Shown here in pieces: positions 25,682 to 33,360 of a stretch of DNA of 33,545 bases. Where the stretch lies: positions 1 through 33,545 of the forward strand of contig DBZJ01000141.1 of the NCBI GenBank assembly GCA_002311635.1, written 5' to 3'. Numbering within the stretch: the stretch's first letter is position 1; each line of letters opens with the position of its first letter. The stretch comes from Syntrophaceae bacterium UBA1163. Lineage in GTDB: Bacteria > Desulfobacterota > BSN033 > UBA1163. The notes under the pieces are model-generated. The model made no database searches, was not told the DNA's origin, and saw nothing but the letters and a program-made list of their open reading frames with translations. The position numbers and the translations under genes are program-made.

Positions 25682-25758
25682 GGCGGTGTAGCTCAGTCGG
25701 TCAGAGCATGCGGCTCATATCCGCAGTGTCCGGGGTTCAAATCCCTGCACCGCCACCA
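25682..25758 (+). tRNA. tRNA with CAT anticodon (Met, or Ile2)
   Basis: 77 bases including an encoded CCA. The acceptor arms GGCGGTG/CACCGCC pair fully. The D arm is GCTC...GAGC, the anticodon stem TGCGG/CCGCA holds loop CTCATAT with CAT in the middle, and the T arm is CGGGG-TTCAAAT-CCCTG. Elongator Met is the more likely identity from the overall form. A tRNA-Ile2 that would be a TilS substrate cannot be excluded by eye; initiator Met is unlikely because the acceptor 1:72 pair is matched (G-C). The 3' end is the attachment site of the element that follows. Confidence 0.95.
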
Positions 25759-25760
25759 AT
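25740..25760 (+). other. Probable attL of the integrative element (tRNA 3' end)
   Basis: The recombinase gene ends 14 bases past the tRNA CCA, the usual arrangement for tRNA-integrating islands, so the crossover core is expected in the T-arm/acceptor end. The matching attR was not found to the right within the window. Confidence 0.6.
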
Positions 25761-25772
25761 TAATTCAATAGG

Positions 25773-26933
25773 TTAAGCCAAAGCGGCGTTTCCATCCTGG
25801 AAGCCCAAAGTCAATCCTAAGTCAATTTTATTGCCCTTCTCCTCGGTTTTCGCAAGGTAGGCTTGCAGCTTCTTCATGGCGATCCTGCCGTCGTCCAGGT
25901 CGACGCGGTTGTAGCGGTTGAACATAGCCATAGTTTTGTGCCCGGAGATGGCCATTATGACGGTGGTATCCACATCGGCTTTTCGCATGTTCGTGACAGC
26001 GGTGTGCCTGAAGTCGTGGAACCACAGGCCTTTGATGCCCACCCGCCTGCACGCCCGCCGGAAGGCTCTTCGGAAGTTGCCCAAGTAGTTTCCGTTCCTG
26101 GTCACGAACAGAAGGCCGTCGGGCTTGCCTTTCCGGCCGCTCATCCATTGCCTCAGTGGAGCACCCACCTCGATGCCAAAAGGGACTCTCCTTCCTTCCC
26201 CGGTCTTGGTTTCGCCGTCGCGCAGCTCAATGAACCCTTCGTCCGGCTTGTCCTCGTAGAAATGGACCTGCTTCCGCCTCAATGCCAGTATCTCCCCTTC
26301 CCTCATCCCAAGATAATAGCCGATGGTCAAGATGAGGGAATATTCCGGAAGCTCCTTCATTAGGGCTTCAAGCTCTTCCGGAGAGGCGACTCGGCCCCTT
26401 GCATTCCTTTCAGGCAGGAAAGAGACCTTCCAGCAGGGGTTCTTCTCTACCAAATCATCTCTGACAGCCAGGTTGTACATCCTCTTGAGCAGCGTGACAA
26501 AACGGTTGACCGTGGCCGGTTTGTATGGAGTGCCTCTCTTGGAAAGCGTGGTGAGCATCCGAGCCTGGAACGACTCGATGTCCGTGGGCTTGATTTCGTT
26601 TGCAAGCTTCTTTCCGAATTGCTTCCTGAGCACTCCCGCCGTTTCAACGTCCCTGCTGTAGGTCTTCTTAGCCTTGGCCTTCGGATGGGTCAGATACCAT
26701 TCCATAAGCTCGTTGAATGTGTATTCCTTCCAGCTTTCCTTCTTCAGACGCTTCTTCTTCTCCCACTCCCCCAGCTTGCGCTGGTACACCTGTTCCGCCA
26801 ATCTCTTCGAGCCGTAGACCTGGATGCTCGTCCTGACGGCTCTGCCGGTAATGGGATCCCTTCGGTAAGGGTATTGGACGATATAAGGGCCATAATGTCT
26901 GCCCTTACTGTCCTTTTGCCTATAAACACCCAT
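25773..26933 (-). CDS. Tyrosine recombinase (integrase)
   Basis: 386 residues. An N-terminal DNA-binding region (residues 1-60, basic) and SAM-like core-binding domain (about 65-170) precede the catalytic domain with R in GMREGEILALRR, HDFRHTAVTNMR (HxxR), SGHKT and the nucleophile Tyr in MFNRYNRVD. The full R-K-H-R-H-Y set appears to be present. The start ATG 26933 follows GGGAGG; the longer frame has no site. Its position at the tRNA and its orientation (3' end facing the tRNA) fit site-specific integration of the element to its right. Confidence 0.96.
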   Translation of the reverse strand: MGVYRQKDSKGRHYGPYIVQYPYRRDPITGRAVRTSIQVYGSKRLAEQVYQRKLGEWEKKKRLKKESWKEYTFNELMEWYLTHPKAKAKKTYSRDVETAGVLRKQFGKKLANEIKPTDIESFQARMLTTLSKRGTPYKPATVNRFVTLLKRMYNLAVRDDLVEKNPCWKVSFLPERNARGRVASPEELEALMKELPEYSLILTIGYYLGMREGEILALRRKQVHFYEDKPDEGFIELRDGETKTGEGRRVPFGIEVGAPLRQWMSGRKGKPDGLLFVTRNGNYLGNFRRAFRRACRRVGIKGLWFHDFRHTAVTNMRKADVDTTVIMAISGHKTMAMFNRYNRVDLDDGRIAMKKLQAYLAKTEEKGNKIDLGLTLGFQDGNAALA

Positions 26934-27014
26934 TTTATCTTCCTCCCTTCTATCCAGAGGAACCGGCAAAATGGGGATTACTGAGACACCACCTCCCTTC
27001 TAAAAAATAGTATC

Positions 27015-27406: not shown

Positions 27407-28798
27407 CTATTTAATAAGTACCTCCGCCCCCGTGATAGGATCGATCACGCTGGAACGTTGGCCCAACATAGGGAAGGCTTTCGCCAACTGTTCCGGAGTC
27501 GGTAGATCTGTCCCACTTATCCACTCTCTTTTTTCTCCAGGGGTATATGTCTTTGGGATTCGTCCCTTCGACCCCTGAACTTCGACCTCTCCGGTTTCTA
27601 TAGCTGGTTCGATCCATCTTTCGATGGTATCCCTGGACACCTTCAAATCCTCCTCCAACTCTTTAACTTTTACCCCTTGGTTTCCATTCTTTTCATAAAG
27701 AGAGATAACTGCCTCGATTATTTTTTGTGTTCTCTCACTCGTGCCAGAGAGGGATTCTTTGAAAGTTGGGCCTAATAAAATTGCCGCCATGTAATAGTCC
27801 TCAAGAGTTGCCACCAGGTATTGGGTCCCATTGTCCTCCTTAATTTCCCTCTGGAACTGATACAGAAGGGTGATTGTCTCTATGCCAGCAAGGAGCTTTC
27901 CAAAATCTCTTCTCATCCTCAATGGCCTGTTGGGTGTGTTCTCGCTAAGGAACTGGGCATAGGGAATCCTCACCGGGTAGTATTTCAGTAACTGCTGGGC
28001 GTCCTGATATAAAGTCAAGAAAGAAAGATCTGTATTGATTTCTGAAAAGGCCTCTGCAATCTTGTCCTTTACCCTCTTTGTTTGGTCGTCGGTTTCATCC
28101 ATGAAGATCGACCAATTTCGGGTCTCATTCTCGTAATGGATCATTGGGGAGGTTGTCGTCACTATAAAACTGACTGGACCTTCCTTCTCAATATGTTCCA
28201 CCTTCAGACCTCGGACCGTTTCAAAAACCAATTTTCCTTCGGACTGCATTGCTCTTATGTTGTAGAGCGCCTGTTCCATTCCTTCTTTTTCGCAAATCAG
28301 TATTACTCTGTGGGCAAGGGGCTCATCGGAATAAAGGAGAACCTGTCCGGTCATTCGGCTAAGTTCCTTGTAGGCCTGCTTGGGAAAGAACTGAGCTACC
28401 GTTCGAACGAGGTGGTTTTTTCCGGCCGCACTCACGCCTTTAACCAAAAGTGAATTAGGATTTCTTTGAATGCGTGATGTACAGCATAAGTAGACAATAA
28501 GGCCGTTCCTCCTCTCCCCTGTGACCCCAGCTTGCTGAATATGTTCCCCTACTTCATAGAGTAAGTTTCTGCTCTTTAGCAGCCTCAAGGCTTCCTTCTC
28601 CTCCTGGGGAGTCAAGGAAGAAGTTTCACCGCCATCCTTCAGGGTATCGGTCGTATTCATTTGACAAGCAGGCTTCTCCGTCACTTCATTTTTTGTCTTT
28701 CCTGCTTCCTTCCCTGTGTCCCTTTTCTCTTCCTTGATCTGCTGCTTCGGGATCACTTTATGCTGGCCGCCACTGATTCTTTTTTTCTTTTTTTCCAT
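27407..28798 (-). CDS. Element-encoded AAA-like ATPase with C-terminal HTH
   Basis: 463 residues. A Lys-rich N-terminus (1-60) is followed by a P-loop NTPase region. The Walker A-like GVSAAGKN (121-128) has Asn where Ser/Thr is usual, with a VILICE Walker B-like strand at 165-170, and FIVTTTSPMIHYENETRNWSIFMDETDDQ as possible sensor/arginine region. The end (VKVKELEEDLKVSRDTIERWIEPAIE, about 378-403) looks like a winged HTH. It resembles replication/primase-helicase ATPases of phage satellites and integrative elements, but I cannot place it in a named family. Its start has GGGAG upstream. It is transcribed away from the plus-strand cargo from a shared divergent region. Confidence 0.8.
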   Translation of the reverse strand: MEKKKKRISGGQHKVIPKQQIKEEKRDTGKEAGKTKNEVTEKPACQMNTTDTLKDGGETSSLTPQEEKEALRLLKSRNLLYEVGEHIQQAGVTGERRNGLIVYLCCTSRIQRNPNSLLVKGVSAAGKNHLVRTVAQFFPKQAYKELSRMTGQVLLYSDEPLAHRVILICEKEGMEQALYNIRAMQSEGKLVFETVRGLKVEHIEKEGPVSFIVTTTSPMIHYENETRNWSIFMDETDDQTKRVKDKIAEAFSEINTDLSFLTLYQDAQQLLKYYPVRIPYAQFLSENTPNRPLRMRRDFGKLLAGIETITLLYQFQREIKEDNGTQYLVATLEDYYMAAILLGPTFKESLSGTSERTQKIIEAVISLYEKNGNQGVKVKELEEDLKVSRDTIERWIEPAIETGEVEVQGSKGRIPKTYTPGEKREWISGTDLPTPEQLAKAFPMLGQRSSVIDPITGAEVLIK

Positions 28799-28946: not shown

Positions 28947-29738
28947 ATGGCCAGTAAAGAGGAAAGGGTTTTGGCTCAAAGGATGGCTAATCTCCTCAAT
29001 GAATTTTTAGAAGAGGATCTCACCAAGGAAGACATGTCTGCCCCGGGTCAAATTGAACATTATTGGAAGATTCTGGAGGAAAATTTCTGGCGCCAAAAAA
29101 TGAATATCCAAGACTGTGTCGACTGCCCAAAATGGACACATTTGGAGGATAATTCATGGCAGCAAGAATTTATTTCCCCAGCCCCGGCCGGCTTCTTCAA
29201 AGCAGAGTATTCGTACCTGTTTAAAGAAATTCTCGGGCCCATTAAGGACGAGGAGATTGAATTTGCAATCGCTATTCTTCTGTTCCATAAGTTTCTGAAT
29301 TATTTACGGGAGGGTGATTCCAAAAGGTTGAAATGGCCTCTTCGGCCGAAATCCTATGAGGATTTGTTCGCAAAGCCGATAGACGGCCGTGTACCGCGAT
29401 ACTTCGACCCCTTCATCTCTAGATATAAGGAAAGTTTCAATGATGACCTAAAATGGTCCATGCATTATTTGAAGAAGTGTAAAGATAAGCTTTGCGGCAA
29501 GTGGAAGGGAGGAAAAGGAGACCTACAAGTGAGGTCCGGTGGTAGGCGGAAGTGGTTTGTCCAGACAGGCAATAAAGAATTTTGCTGCCACGGCTGTGCA
29601 TCAAGGTACCGCAAAAGGATGAAAGAAGGGAAAGGAGACCTGCAACTGAGCTACCGTCCAAGGCGTCGGAACAAGAAGAAAGTTGCAATGTCTGAAGGTG
29701 GGATCAATGGGAAAAAGGAATACTCCAGAAACATCTAG
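28947..29738 (+). CDS. Element protein with C-terminal Cys-rich finger (263 aa)
   Basis: Residues 1-170 are largely helical and acidic, with CVDC near 57-60 that may bind metal. The C-terminal part has KCKDKLCGKW ... KEFCCHGCASRYRKRMKEG, a layout close to CGNR-type zinc fingers (pair of Cys, basic linker, CxxC, then RxRKR), and ends in a very basic tail. I recognise no family for the whole protein. The ATG follows GGGAGGG and the promoter/operator described upstream. It overlaps the 122-aa gene at its 3' end by 32 bases, so both are likely translated from one message. DNA or RNA binding is inferred from the finger. Confidence 0.75.
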   Translation: MASKEERVLAQRMANLLNEFLEEDLTKEDMSAPGQIEHYWKILEENFWRQKMNIQDCVDCPKWTHLEDNSWQQEFISPAPAGFFKAEYSYLFKEILGPIKDEEIEFAIAILLFHKFLNYLREGDSKRLKWPLRPKSYEDLFAKPIDGRVPRYFDPFISRYKESFNDDLKWSMHYLKKCKDKLCGKWKGGKGDLQVRSGGRRKWFVQTGNKEFCCHGCASRYRKRMKEGKGDLQLSYRPRRRNKKKVAMSEGGINGKKEYSRNI

Positions 29739-30051
29739 CATCAAGAAATCTCCTGCGGCTTCATCATTAAATTCCTCTCTAACGATGGCTGGGACATCGC
29801 TCGTCGAAATAAGTCAGATGGGGAATGTCCACTACTCAAGGGAGATCATTGAGAGCACAGAAGTAGCCTCTGACCTTGATAAACTTAGAACCTTAAAGAA
29901 AGACAAACAGAAATTTCTGAAATGGGAAAGAGAGATGCTGAACAGGCTCTGTGGAGGCAAAGACGCTCTGGGAGTTCATGATGACGCGTTTTTAATAAAG
30001 GTGGGAATCATTCTCTCGGAGATCAAAACCGCTTTCAAAGATGTCAAATGA
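29707..30051 (+). CDS. Small element protein of unknown function (114 aa)
   Basis: The start ATG 29707 (MGKRNTPETS) follows GGTGGG and lies inside the end of the 263-aa gene. Residues 1-40 are Ser/Thr-rich and probably disordered. From about 55 onward a coiled-coil-like helical stretch runs (EVASDLDKLRTLKKDKQKFL, then REMLNRLCGG) and the end (FLIKVGIILSEIKTAFKD) is another amphipathic helix. No family is recognised. Overlap with both neighbours argues for a compact operon; a regulator or an adaptor is possible but unproven. Confidence 0.65.
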   Translation: MGKRNTPETSSIKKSPAASSLNSSLTMAGTSLVEISQMGNVHYSREIIESTEVASDLDKLRTLKKDKQKFLKWEREMLNRLCGGKDALGVHDDAFLIKVGIILSEIKTAFKDVK

Positions 30052-30334: not shown

Positions 30335-31549
30335 ATGCGCAAAGATCAGTTAATGGATGCGAGCAATAATGCGTCCGGTATTGAAACACCTTGTGTGGAT
30401 TTGGCTTCCGGCGGACCCCTGAATCAGGTGGTCGCTATTCATTCGCATCAATCAGTACACGTTTCAGCTCTTCAAGAGGAAGAGCCTGATCAACCCTCCC
30501 AGAGAGGCTTGGTGGATCAACATCAACATTCTCATGCTGAGACGATTGATGAAAGGTACGAAGATCTTGAGATTGAAGTCATCCGGCATTTCACATCGAT
30601 CCCGGATTACAAAGCGCCAACGGACTCCAAATACCCGATTGTCGCAAGGACTCCGCAAGGCTGCTTCTGCCTCGATGGTTGGGACCTTATAGAAAGCGCG
30701 AAGGCCAGTGGAAAAGTTTCCGTGACCTGTGCTGTTGAGTATCTGGCAGACCATTCTGACGAAGAGCTGGCTATCCGAAAGACCGCTTTGCGGGTAAAGC
30801 CCAAAGGAGGGATCGCAAGCTATGCGGAAATCGTACGAAATGTGAGACGCCTCCAGGAGATGCTGCTGGCCTCAAATCATGACTTAAGGACCTTTCGTCA
30901 CGGGGGAAGCAGGAGGGGAGAAGAGTTTGCGAATAACAAGCAAGAAAACGTCATCAAGGTGCTTGCCCTGCGCTTAGGCAAATCCGTCTCGACCACAAAT
31001 CAGTATCTGAGCCATGCGCGCTACCTGTCCAAAGAAATGCTAAATCTCCTCGTTACCAAGGAGGTCAATAAGGACTTCTTCGAAAAAGCCAATGCCAATA
31101 AGACAACAGCCCTCACTCGTCTGAACAGTGAACGGAAATCTGAAGCCGAGATCACCGAGCAGATTTCCGCTCGCATGATAGGCTGGCTCCAGGAATACGA
31201 ACAGAATAAGAAGATTGAAGCCTTATGGAAAGAACATGAGCCTAGCCCACCAGGAGAGAGTCGGAGCGAGACCACTCAGGACCCGGCACCAGCAGAGTCG
31301 AAGGAGGGGGATGAGGAAGAAAAAGAAGAAATATTCGATCCATGGCGGGGAAATCCGGAGGAACCTGAGAATGATTCCTTTGAACAGCTGAAGCGAGAGA
31401 CCGGGGATCTGGCGAAAAGGTTATCGGAGGCAGTTACACTGGACGACCCAAACCTTCTTTGCGACAGAATCATGGAGGAGACACCTCGCTTCTATCAAAT
31501 TTCACTCAGGGCAGCGACCCTCAGGAAGATGCAAGATAGAAAATTGTAG
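30335..31549 (+). CDS. ParB-like DNA-binding protein paired with the TGT-like gene
   Basis: 404 residues. Residues 78-180 match the ParB/Spo0J N-terminal-like fold: KYPIVARTPQGCFCLDGWDLIESAK, then DEELAIRKTALRVKPKG and ASYAEIVRNVRRLQEML. A helix-turn-helix follows (VLALRLGKSVSTTNQYLSHARYLS, about 209-232). The GERRxRA CTPase motif of chromosomal ParB is not seen, so it may be a specificity or nuclease-like relative. The C-terminal 100 residues are acidic and low-complexity. GGGGAGG precedes ATG. The TGT-like gene begins 13 bases after its stop. ParB-like proteins accompany DpdA in 7-deazaguanine DNA-modification islands as I recall, hence the pairing is suggestive. Confidence 0.8.
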   Translation: MRKDQLMDASNNASGIETPCVDLASGGPLNQVVAIHSHQSVHVSALQEEEPDQPSQRGLVDQHQHSHAETIDERYEDLEIEVIRHFTSIPDYKAPTDSKYPIVARTPQGCFCLDGWDLIESAKASGKVSVTCAVEYLADHSDEELAIRKTALRVKPKGGIASYAEIVRNVRRLQEMLLASNHDLRTFRHGGSRRGEEFANNKQENVIKVLALRLGKSVSTTNQYLSHARYLSKEMLNLLVTKEVNKDFFEKANANKTTALTRLNSERKSEAEITEQISARMIGWLQEYEQNKKIEALWKEHEPSPPGESRSETTQDPAPAESKEGDEEEKEEIFDPWRGNPEEPENDSFEQLKRETGDLAKRLSEAVTLDDPNLLCDRIMEETPRFYQISLRAATLRKMQDRKL

Positions 31550-31562
31550 AAGGAGTTTTTTA

Positions 31563-32666
31563 ATGGGTAAATTGGTCATTTTTTGTGCTGGCACGGACAT
31601 AGGAATTCTCCCAGCGAAAAAGGTTACGAGCATCCTTGTCAACCCTTTTGACAATGCAATGAATCAAAAGGCAATCAGGGAAACCCTAGCCATGTTTGCC
31701 TACGCAGGGACTGAGAACCGTTTCCTCGACTCAGGAGGATATCAGATTTACAAGGCAGAAGAACAGGGGAAAGTAATGACCTTCGATCCAAATTCACCTC
31801 TGATAGAGTCAGAGGATCGGATTAACATATCACCGAATCACGTGGTTGAGACCGCCTGCCAGCTTCATCCTCAAATGATGACCGCCCTCGATTTTCCCGT
31901 TCGCAAGCTCAAAGATAAAACAGAGCGCGAGAAAGAGTTCCTCAGCAAATTGGGCTTCAACATCAAATGGGCCACTGAGGCATCACTGCTGAGGGCAAGG
32001 CATTGTCCCCAAGTTCAATTATTTCTCCCAATCCAATGCTACGATCTCGATCAATTTGAACTTTTTAAGAGATCAATCGGGGACATAAGCTACGACGGCT
32101 TCAGCACGCCATTGCGCAACATGGAATTAGATGAGATCGCTCTTTTACTGGTTCGCTTCTATCAACTTGGGACCAAGAAGGTCCACCTCCTTGGCTCAAC
32201 CTCCTTCTTTGTCATTGTTCTTTCGGCTTTCTTCGCGCGCCATCTGTTTGACTGGATCTCCCTCGACGCAACGAGCTGGAGGTTGGCGGCAGAGAAGGCG
32301 CAGGCATATTTCAACCCCTTTGATCTCTCCCCAGAGAATCTCAAGGATAATGTTCTAATTGACGAGAGCATCCGCATGATCTGTCAGTGCCCCTTCTGCG
32401 AGAATAGGACCTTCACCTACATCAAGACCTTACCTTATACGGATAAGCTTGCTCTTCTCAGAAGCCACAACTTTTACGTCATAGAAAAAGCGGGCGAGGA
32501 CCTATACGAAAATGCGTCCGATCTGTTGAGGTTCGAAAAGTTTCTCAGAAGGCGCAGTCCAAGGATCAAGGACATCAATAATCTCATCAGGTGCCTCTCG
32601 ATCATCGATATTTACAAAAAGGAGGACATCAACGTATTGAAACAGCTCTTGAGGACTGACACATAG
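31563..32666 (+). CDS. tRNA-guanine-transglycosylase-like base-exchange protein (DpdA-like candidate)
   Basis: 367 residues with the marks of the TGT superfamily. LDSGGYQ (55-61) corresponds to the (T/L)DSGGFQ active-site loop. HLLGS (208-212) matches the HxLGxG turn, and FDWISLDATSW (229-239) lies where TGTs carry the nucleophile in FDCVxPT. CQCPFC (274-279) and H302 form CxCxxC-x22-H, the TGT zinc site. It is divergent from housekeeping Tgt: the PTRxxRxG segment is missing. DpdA enzymes, which place preQ0 in DNA, and archaeosine TGTs are the closest logic. Coupling to a ParB-like gene on a mobile element favours DNA as target; tRNA remains possible. AAGGAG precedes ATG by 7 bases. Confidence 0.75.
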   Translation: MGKLVIFCAGTDIGILPAKKVTSILVNPFDNAMNQKAIRETLAMFAYAGTENRFLDSGGYQIYKAEEQGKVMTFDPNSPLIESEDRINISPNHVVETACQLHPQMMTALDFPVRKLKDKTEREKEFLSKLGFNIKWATEASLLRARHCPQVQLFLPIQCYDLDQFELFKRSIGDISYDGFSTPLRNMELDEIALLLVRFYQLGTKKVHLLGSTSFFVIVLSAFFARHLFDWISLDATSWRLAAEKAQAYFNPFDLSPENLKDNVLIDESIRMICQCPFCENRTFTYIKTLPYTDKLALLRSHNFYVIEKAGEDLYENASDLLRFEKFLRRRSPRIKDINNLIRCLSIIDIYKKEDINVLKQLLRTDT

Positions 32667-32838
32667 TGCAACAGAGGGGGAATTCCCTTTTTAGAAGGGG
32701 CCGTTAAACAAGAGCAGAGAGGAAGTGAGCAGAATATGGAGAAATAGATCTCGAGATGCAGTAGGCAAAGGCTTTATCACAAACCACCATATCAGACTGC
32801 TGTGCTATCGTGCACCACGGGCAGAAGGAGAAAGTAAA

Positions 32839-33360
32839 ATGTATTTAATCATAAGGATTATCGTACATGCCAAAGACAAAGAAGAAGCCTGGAAAAATGG
32901 AGAGGATGCCCTTAACAAATTGGTGAAAAGGGAAATATTTGATTGTTACAGAACTTTTGAAAGAGAAGATCGTAATGGTTGGAAGGGAGATTGGGCTCAC
33001 CTCCCACCTATACTTTTAGCTGACAGTCCCGAAGGAAGACGTTTTATAGACGTAGGTTGGAAATATACCGTTGAAGGTTTTACGCAGGCTTTCGAGCAAG
33101 TCAAGCTTGCTGTCCAGTATCTTAGCCTTCGGGAGATTATGGAGAGGACGTTTCCAGATGATCTGCCAGAAGATATCAGGAAAAAGATAAACATCCTCTC
33201 TATGCAGGTCTATTTTGATGAACTCGGTTTGAATAGTGGATATCCCAAATACCTTTATCATGACGATGAACCGATTTTGAGCAACACGGAATTGGAGTTT
33301 GCCCTTGATCCTAAGGAAGGATTAAACGCTTACGTTATTCCGGCGGATGTTCACTACTGA
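32839..33360 (+). CDS. Hypothetical protein downstream of the TGT-like gene (173 aa)
   Basis: The start ATG 32839 (MYLIIRIIVHAKDKEEAWKN) has AAGGAG 9 bases upstream; a longer frame adds 38 unlikely residues. The N-terminus forms a short ferredoxin-like beta-alpha unit (IIRIIVHAKDKEEAWKNGEDALNKLV). The middle has GWKGDWAHLPPILLADSPEG, and the end is acidic. No known family is recognised, and no catalytic pattern is evident. It lies 172 bases after the TGT-like gene in the same direction and may belong to the same system or be another cargo gene. Confidence 0.72.
   Translation: MYLIIRIIVHAKDKEEAWKNGEDALNKLVKREIFDCYRTFEREDRNGWKGDWAHLPPILLADSPEGRRFIDVGWKYTVEGFTQAFEQVKLAVQYLSLREIMERTFPDDLPEDIRKKINILSMQVYFDELGLNSGYPKYLYHDDEPILSNTELEFALDPKEGLNAYVIPADVHY

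Follow-up and report, generated by a model that had tools for sequence, protein, structure and literature searches.

A ParB-like and TGT-like gene pair on a tRNA-Met-integrated element of a Syntrophaceae bacterium, a candidate variant of DpdA-type DNA guanine exchange

In dpd islands, dPreQ0 in DNA is made by DpdA together with DpdB, a ParB-like ATPase that some clusters may be able to do without (PMC12839542). A ParB-superfamily protein is also given as the partner of DpdA in the CRB2 paper (PMC6392294), and some reported islands have dpdAB yet lack both dpdC and restriction genes (PMC11888242). Archaeal tRNA-guanine transglycosylase (TGT) and DpdA both use preQ0, and phages with dpdA alone were described as having modified DNA, probably from host precursors (PMC8306585). 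Protection from restriction by 7-deazaguanine was reported for phages (PMC6884629), and the opposite hazard was described for GrwAB, which restricts 7-deazaguanine phages (PMC12137116). In this study, we analysed a whole contig of 33,545 nucleotides from Syntrophaceae bacterium UBA1163 (DBZJ01000141.1, here C92, of assembly GCA_002311635.1; 4.08 Mb in 248 contigs), hereafter the window, and focus on a ParB-like and a TGT-like gene at 30335..32666. Our preferred explanation, to which we give somewhat better than even weight, is that this pair, carried by the element, is a divergent counterpart of DpdA with a ParB-type partner; it would exchange guanine in DNA for host preQ0, be aimed by the ParB-like protein and shield the element from restriction.

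The earlier note on this DNA had described a ParB-like and a TGT-like gene, the latter with a zinc site, side by side on a tRNA-integrated mobile element, and these observations hold. The TGT-fold enzyme (367 aa; 31563..32666, + strand) exceeds the curated cut-off of the TGT superfamily (PF01702). Its predicted structure matches the TGT TIM-barrel with a zinc site (C274/C276/C279/H302), and its predicted active site consists of D56, H208 and D235. Among 3,080 candidates, 182 proteins resemble the enzyme; 120 of these were listed and 40 of those 120 aligned. Residues D56, D110, Q158, H208, D235, W239, C274, C276, C279 and H302 are invariant in 40/40, so that the zinc residues are kept throughout. 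The nucleophile region follows the motif D-[AS]-T-[ST]-W (D-S-R-T-W in one member), with D and W again in all 40 and an FDC-type motif in 0/40 family members, and 20/20 housekeeping Tgts read D-C-V-x-P-T at this position (loci L028 and L035 left out of the count). Where names are given among the matches listed, family members are mostly called tRNA transglycosylase, ribosyltransferase or hypothetical protein, an annotation that would change if the DNA role is true.

In a profile scan of 395 genomes of the host phylum, the enzyme profile matched 12: the window's own, one Desulfatibacillum genome with two distant matches of 67 bits each, and ten at 18.4-23.1 bits (L016-L025), every one readable as a housekeeping Tgt. 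Six loci (L006-L011) came from a pattern-based scan of genome contigs, five with titles of deltaproteobacterium, Desulfatitalea or Desulfobacula and one of Synergistaceae. A viral origin of the family was considered and rejected: three pattern-based scans of IMG/VR found no viral relatives, and tblastn of the window enzyme against 50,697 phage records gave no match at E<=1. Likewise, neither phage nor plasmid records contained a match to the Desulfatibacillum protein, and the plasmid records had none to the relative P0036.

The two genes are linked, co-diverge and have an operon-like layout. The ParB-like gene (404 aa; 30335..31549, + strand) ends 13 bases before the enzyme gene, which is preceded by a Shine-Dalgarno-like GAAGGAG (31549..31555, + strand). 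Co-occurrence of the pair at other loci, which the earlier note had proposed as a check, was found: the enzyme gene directly follows a ParB-like open reading frame (ORF) in 4/7 family loci, i.e., the window and, with gaps of 22, 12 and 2 bases, L006, L007 and L009 (in L009 the ORF is interrupted by masked bases). The Desulfatibacillum clade, which joins the family in the tree described below, has a ParB-like gene beside the enzyme gene in one of its two loci (L049, overlapping or abutting), and this ParB appears related to that of the window (hhalign E 7.5e-4, probability 25%). Enzyme and ParB distances were correlated over nine pairs, consisting of the window, L006, L007 and six metagenome pairs whose pairing is presumptive, being based solely on equal length of the longest contig (Mantel r 0.81, as high in 12/5,000 permutations).

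The partner possesses a ParB N-domain fold followed by a helix-turn-helix (HTH), as seen in the AlphaFold2 (AF2) model and its ParB/Noc fold matches, which places it in the ParB/Srx superfamily. It is resembled by 34 proteins among 5,202 candidates, 20 of which were aligned. C112, D114, G115, G190, G191 and R193 are invariant in 20/20, giving the motifs C-[LI]-D-G and G-G-x-R, and most members read C-[LI]-D-G-W-x-L. The ParB profile matched 1/390 genomes of the host phylum, the window's own. When the DpdB model NF041060 (cut-off 300 bits) was run on this genome, the window ParB-like gene was not listed, and only a protein on contig C102 was returned. This protein (L047:463-1662, - strand) is a weak DpdB match of 58.7 bits and carries a CLDGQHR motif; a relationship between it and the window ParB was considered and not detected (hhalign E 0.12). 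At the Desulfatibacillum locus L049 (G057:C45, 9450-11763), the gene of a TGT-fold protein that lacks the zinc site is abutted by a ParB-like gene, which, unlike the window family, keeps HGYRR and also has an HGGKRKG motif. A protein search with the L049 TGT-fold protein returned itself and one 46% relative only.

By the family models, the enzyme is neither Tgt nor DpdA, and it forms a clade of its own, joined by the two zinc-less Desulfatibacillum proteins. The bacterial Tgt model TIGR00430 (cut-off 306.75 bits) does not match the window enzyme at E<=0.1 and matches 14/40 family members weakly (best E 1.4e-6), and the archaeosine TGT (arcTGT) model TIGR00432 scores it at 18.8 bits, below the equivalog cut-off of 350 bits. 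The DpdA models of NCBIfam and PADLOC (NF041059 and PDLC02807) leave the window enzyme unmatched at E<=0.1, and the curated DpdA model matched 0/40 family members at E<=1. These two models score the DpdA of phage 9g at just 13.9 and 11.7 bits, and thus do not cover phage DpdA either. In a tree of 34 rows, made by a quick method with an arbitrary midpoint root and long branches, four groups were recovered, with Shimodaira-Hasegawa-like approximate likelihood ratio test (SH-aLRT) values of 94 for the family, 100 for the Desulfatibacillum pair (joined to the family at 93), 99 for Tgt and 96 for phage DpdA. Its rows were the window enzyme, 9 other of the 40 aligned proteins, L006-L010, L004/L005, 7 phage proteins and 10 of the 20 Tgts; L011, bacterial DpdA and archaeal TGT are not in it, and phiSM is a long, oddly composed row.

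In its nucleophile motif and active-site histidine, the enzyme is more like DpdA and archaeal TGT than like bacterial Tgt. In the alignment with 9g DpdA, D56/H208/D235/W239 of the window enzyme fall on D72/H196/D215/W219, and it has the D, the H196 equivalent and the D-S-S-x-W-like region of phage-type DpdA, with H and the D-S type not being exclusive to DpdA. Six aligned phage DpdAs all have D-S, W and H, and the seventh, phiSM, has F instead of W. A comparison of the family with 9g DpdA by hhalign gave E 7.4e-4 over 81 columns at a probability of only 25.6%. H196 is stated to be conserved in DpdA and absent in DpdA2 (PMC6884629); unlike this statement, KVP40.0122, a likely DpdA2, shows H at this position in our alignment. 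The bacterial DpdA structure, named as 7UI4 (PMC12137116), was not among the structure matches listed.

Several results weigh against a DpdA-like role of the pair. The family profile, run at E<=10, found 15/20 Tgts, 0/7 phage DpdAs and not KVP40.0122, and the hhalign tie of the family to Tgt (E 3.4e-5, probability 72.1%, 231 columns) is longer and stronger than that to phage DpdA. Profile and tree alike fail to place the family closer to phage DpdA than to other TGTs. The sole PDB sequence match of the profile at E<=0.01 is the archaeal TGT 1iq8 (1.4e-9), and TIGR00432 is matched by 39/40 family members at E<=1 (best 5.6e-10). Archaeal TGT also has the H and a D-S-A-S-Y nucleophile, and at least 3 of the 20 Tgts carry the active-site H; H208 was therefore rejected as a DpdA-only marker. 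The profile and hhalign results thus suggest that the whole-length signal is TGT-like, with likeness to DpdA and arcTGT limited to the active-site region. Regarding the linkage, L008 and the Desulfatibacillum-clade locus L048 have no adjacent ParB-like gene, the HTH-like protein upstream in L010 is weakly like the C-half of ParB (hhalign E 0.024, probability 2%), and the upstream ORF of L011 resembles that of L010 by eye. The window ParB has no detectable similarity to the phage ParB partners (hhalign E 0.6, probability 0.1%). ParB CTPases carry a nucleotide motif of the G-E-R-R type; here this position reads D-G-W-x-L, with an arginine at columns 114-118 in 0/20 members, so that the partner may have lost nucleotide hydrolysis, while DpdB is described as an ATPase (PMC12839542). 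Finally, the right end of the element lies on another contig and is unassembled.

The main alternative is an element-borne tRNA-modifying enzyme of the arcTGT or Tgt kind, which would insert preQ0 or preQ1 into host or element tRNA next to a ParB-like gene that is a neighbouring regulator or partition gene. The TGT-type zinc site in the whole alignment, archaeosine TGT as the nearest PDB sequence match, a family profile that detects Tgts rather than phage DpdAs, and the enzymes of L008 and L048 that stand without a ParB neighbour all fit with it. Nevertheless, we regard it as unlikely. The host possesses a complete Tgt elsewhere (C120, 543.7 bits), and therefore tRNA queuosine needs no second enzyme. 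With 367 aa compared to the 582 aa of 1iq8, there is no room for the extra C-terminal domains of arcTGT, which bind tRNA. Moreover, the nucleophile motif is unlike that of bacterial Tgt, and the enzyme is linked to, and co-diverges with, a partner of DNA-binding type.

If the pair does act on DNA, as we prefer, D235 would attack deoxyguanosine with D56 as general acid/base, and guanine would be swapped for a 7-deazaguanine base made or imported by the host. Double-displacement chemistry is established for TGT, and the residues suggest that it could apply here. Since archaeal TGT and DpdA both use preQ0, this base is favoured as the substrate and would most likely be the one inserted. The ParB-like protein, which combines a ParB N-domain and an HTH with C-terminal helices, would potentially recruit the enzyme to the element DNA, and the 7-deazaguanine marks might shield the integrating, replicating element from host restriction. 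The host has genes of the preQ0 pathway, namely QueC (274.7 bits), QueD (136.2 bits) and QueF (97.1 bits), and directly before queC a Vut_1 transporter gene (184.8 bits), which we take to be of the YhhQ family. Host contig C29 encodes a further QueC-like protein of 456 aa (L013:782-2149, - strand; PF06508 28.8 bits), which is longer than queC and may belong to a defence-type system instead of preQ0 synthesis.

Bacterial DpdA systems mark self DNA, and unmarked DNA is restricted (PMC12839542, PMC11888242). It could accordingly be asked whether the pair is a dpd-island-like module for marking host DNA in defence, rather than for self-protection of the element, with its restriction genes elsewhere on the element, the right end of which is unassembled, or in the host. 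This is improbable in our view: no PADLOC match at E<=0.1 was obtained for any of the 7 scanned proteins of the element in the window, no restriction or dpdC-like gene was recognised by eye among the listed ORFs of L006-L011 (most of them not scanned against the libraries), and NF041059 and NF041060 revealed no dpd pair in the host. A true dpd system in the host phylum was also searched for and rejected, as NF041059 matched 33 of 297 genomes, 0 above the cut-off. Of the ten loci returned, eight have an ORF readable as housekeeping Tgt; in the host, too, it is the Tgt that the model matched. A partition or copy-control system, with the ParB-like protein as main actor and the TGT-fold protein marking origin DNA as an epigenetic switch, is very unlikely, because no ParA-like gene was noticed by eye in the element and the TGT gene also occurs without a ParB gene (L008, L048), even though the ParB/Noc fold with HTH and the position of relatives near replication genes would suit it.

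To the left of the element, before 25.7 kb, the five genes scanned have a chromosomal appearance (peptidase, nickel insertion protein, TilS, BATS/radical SAM and BadF-type ATPase). Its integration target is a tRNA-Met gene (anticodon CAT; 25682..25758, + strand; ARAGORN), and the 46-bp tRNA 3' end forms a putative attL (25714..25759, + strand) with exact copies at host C134:1155-1200 and C72:5266-5311. Two further matches, weaker and only partial, were located on C27 and C246, and ARAGORN found no tRNA gene at any of these four repeat sites outside the window. A tyrosine integrase (25773..26969, - strand; PF00589 82.2 bits; phrog_1 E 2e-61) adjoins the tRNA, which, together with the repeated tRNA 3' end, marks a tRNA-integrated mobile element; its base composition is unremarkable (G+C 46.9% vs 48.9%). 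It is followed by a 463-aa protein (27407..28798, - strand) with sub-threshold matches of HTH type, and with matches to phrog_12057 (22.1 bits) and an IS630 transposase (20.4 bits, cut-off 100), which by eye resembles the C-terminal part of ATPases on the related elements L010 and L011. A 263-aa protein (28947..29738, + strand; sub-threshold PF12156 16.1 bits) has a short C-terminal Cys-rich, zinc-finger-like stretch, and comparable ORFs, likewise sub-threshold, occur in L008, L009 and L048, some such proteins near an integrase. A 122-aa ORF (29683..30051, + strand) has no family match. Downstream of the TGT-like gene, a 211-aa ORF (32725..33360, + strand) has no significant family match and is only a putative member of the module.

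On C134, 1,154 bases separate the repeat copy from the contig start, and a G2P-like replication protein gene (PF23343 33.1 bits) lies in this interval, which makes C134 the more probable right end of the element. C72 is less likely, as by eye the genes on the left side of its repeat appear chromosomal, and the window end shares no overlap of at least 16 bases with the ends of C134 or C72. The G2P-like protein is of the rolling-circle replication type (L056:103-1005, - strand) and stands beside the likely right attachment site. The C72 copy (L055) is located about 850 bases from a short ORF that by eye resembles the start of a type III methyltransferase gene, and the same tRNA-Met may thus have hosted another element there. 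By eye, an integrase lies near the TGT-like relative in L006, L008, L009, L011 and L048. Replication genes were found near others: a D5-type helicase in L007, Prim-Pol and DnaB in L009, and a DnaG-type primase in L008. Together, these genes suggest a setting that fits small integrative, replicating elements.

It is tempting to speculate further, although we rate this a little below even, that the family is a third lineage of DNA guanine transglycosylases beside bacterial/phage DpdA and DpdA2, which has kept the zinc site and links archaeal TGT with DpdA. Small integrative elements that replicate, in Thermodesulfobacteriota and Synergistota, would have spread it together with a dedicated ParB-type targeting partner (C-[LI]-D-G, G-G-x-R, no canonical nucleotide motif), and host preQ0 would mark the element DNA only, as anti-restriction camouflage or epigenetic tag. 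If the pair does modify DNA, the range of 7-deazaguanine DNA modification, with phages and dpd islands so far, would grow to include small integrative elements of anaerobes that are mostly uncultured. As an intermediate that still has the zinc site, the family would also help to ask how a tRNA-modifying fold turned to DNA, and it would provide a compact two-gene system with host-supplied precursor for probing the role of the ParB-superfamily partner. The literature searched, which covered few subscription papers, yielded no paper dealing with this family or with ParB-TGT pairs of integrative elements.

Among known systems, archaeosine TGT (1iq8) shares with the window enzyme the zinc site, the H in V-H-L-x-G and the D-S-A-S-Y nucleophile region. 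It differs by its length and long C-terminal extension; its substrate is tRNA, and we know of no ParB partner for it. Phage DpdA2 of the Vibrio phage nt-1/KVP40 type is represented by the viral structure match R9TGF0 (rank 7, E 3.4e-8), presumably the nt-1 protein, judging by position and name. On the same grounds KVP40.0122 is probably DpdA2; its VHMLG and YDSST compare with VHLLG and LDATS of the window, whereas it lacks the zinc cysteines and escapes the family profile. KVP40.0122 (L061:2634-4013) is annotated as hypothetical, reads DSGGLQ, VHMLG and YDSST, and is flanked by folE on one side and by a GTP cyclohydrolase I family gene that appears QueF-like on the other. An uncultured phage protein named ParB/Sulfiredoxin (BFVD A0A6J5RUN9) matches the TGT-fold model (Foldseek E 2.3e-3) and is a possible natural ParB-TGT fusion.

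In 12 phage regions with a TGT-like gene, a ParB-like gene immediately precedes the TGT-like gene in 3 (Calamitous, CRB2, Sonali), precedes it with one intervening gene in 2 (Rinkes and Bipper, the latter annotated only as DNA binding protein) and directly follows it in 1 (phiSM). None is annotated beside it in 6 (9g, BUCT006, BS162P1, PIP, KVP40, Ssp-JY38); in BUCT006, BS162P1, PIP and KVP40 the TGT-like gene is not annotated as such. The pairs of Mycobacterium phages Calamitous and CRB2 and of Arthrobacter phage Sonali have the gene order and strand of the window pair, and a similar D-S-S-x-W nucleophile and H. In contrast, the zinc cysteines are absent in the seven aligned phage enzymes, which form a separate clade, the phage ParB proteins are not detectably similar to the window ParB, and queC/D/E-like and GTP cyclohydrolase genes stand beside the pair in these three phages. 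Among the seven element ORFs scanned here, the right end being on another contig, no dpdC, restriction or preQ0 gene was found. The dpd islands (DpdA NF041059, DpdB NF041060) likewise combine a TGT-homologous enzyme with a ParB-superfamily partner. They differ in that the window proteins are not listed by the DpdA and DpdB models, and that the window partner keeps only the D-G of DGQHR, the DpdB motif. The earlier note, which had not considered DpdB, raised the pair as a candidate new system, and this part of its interpretation is not upheld, while fold, zinc site, mobile setting and linkage stand. With DpdA-DpdB, phage ParB-DpdA pairs and dpdAB-only islands in print, the concept is already known, and on our preferred reading the window pair would be a new variant of it rather than a new category.

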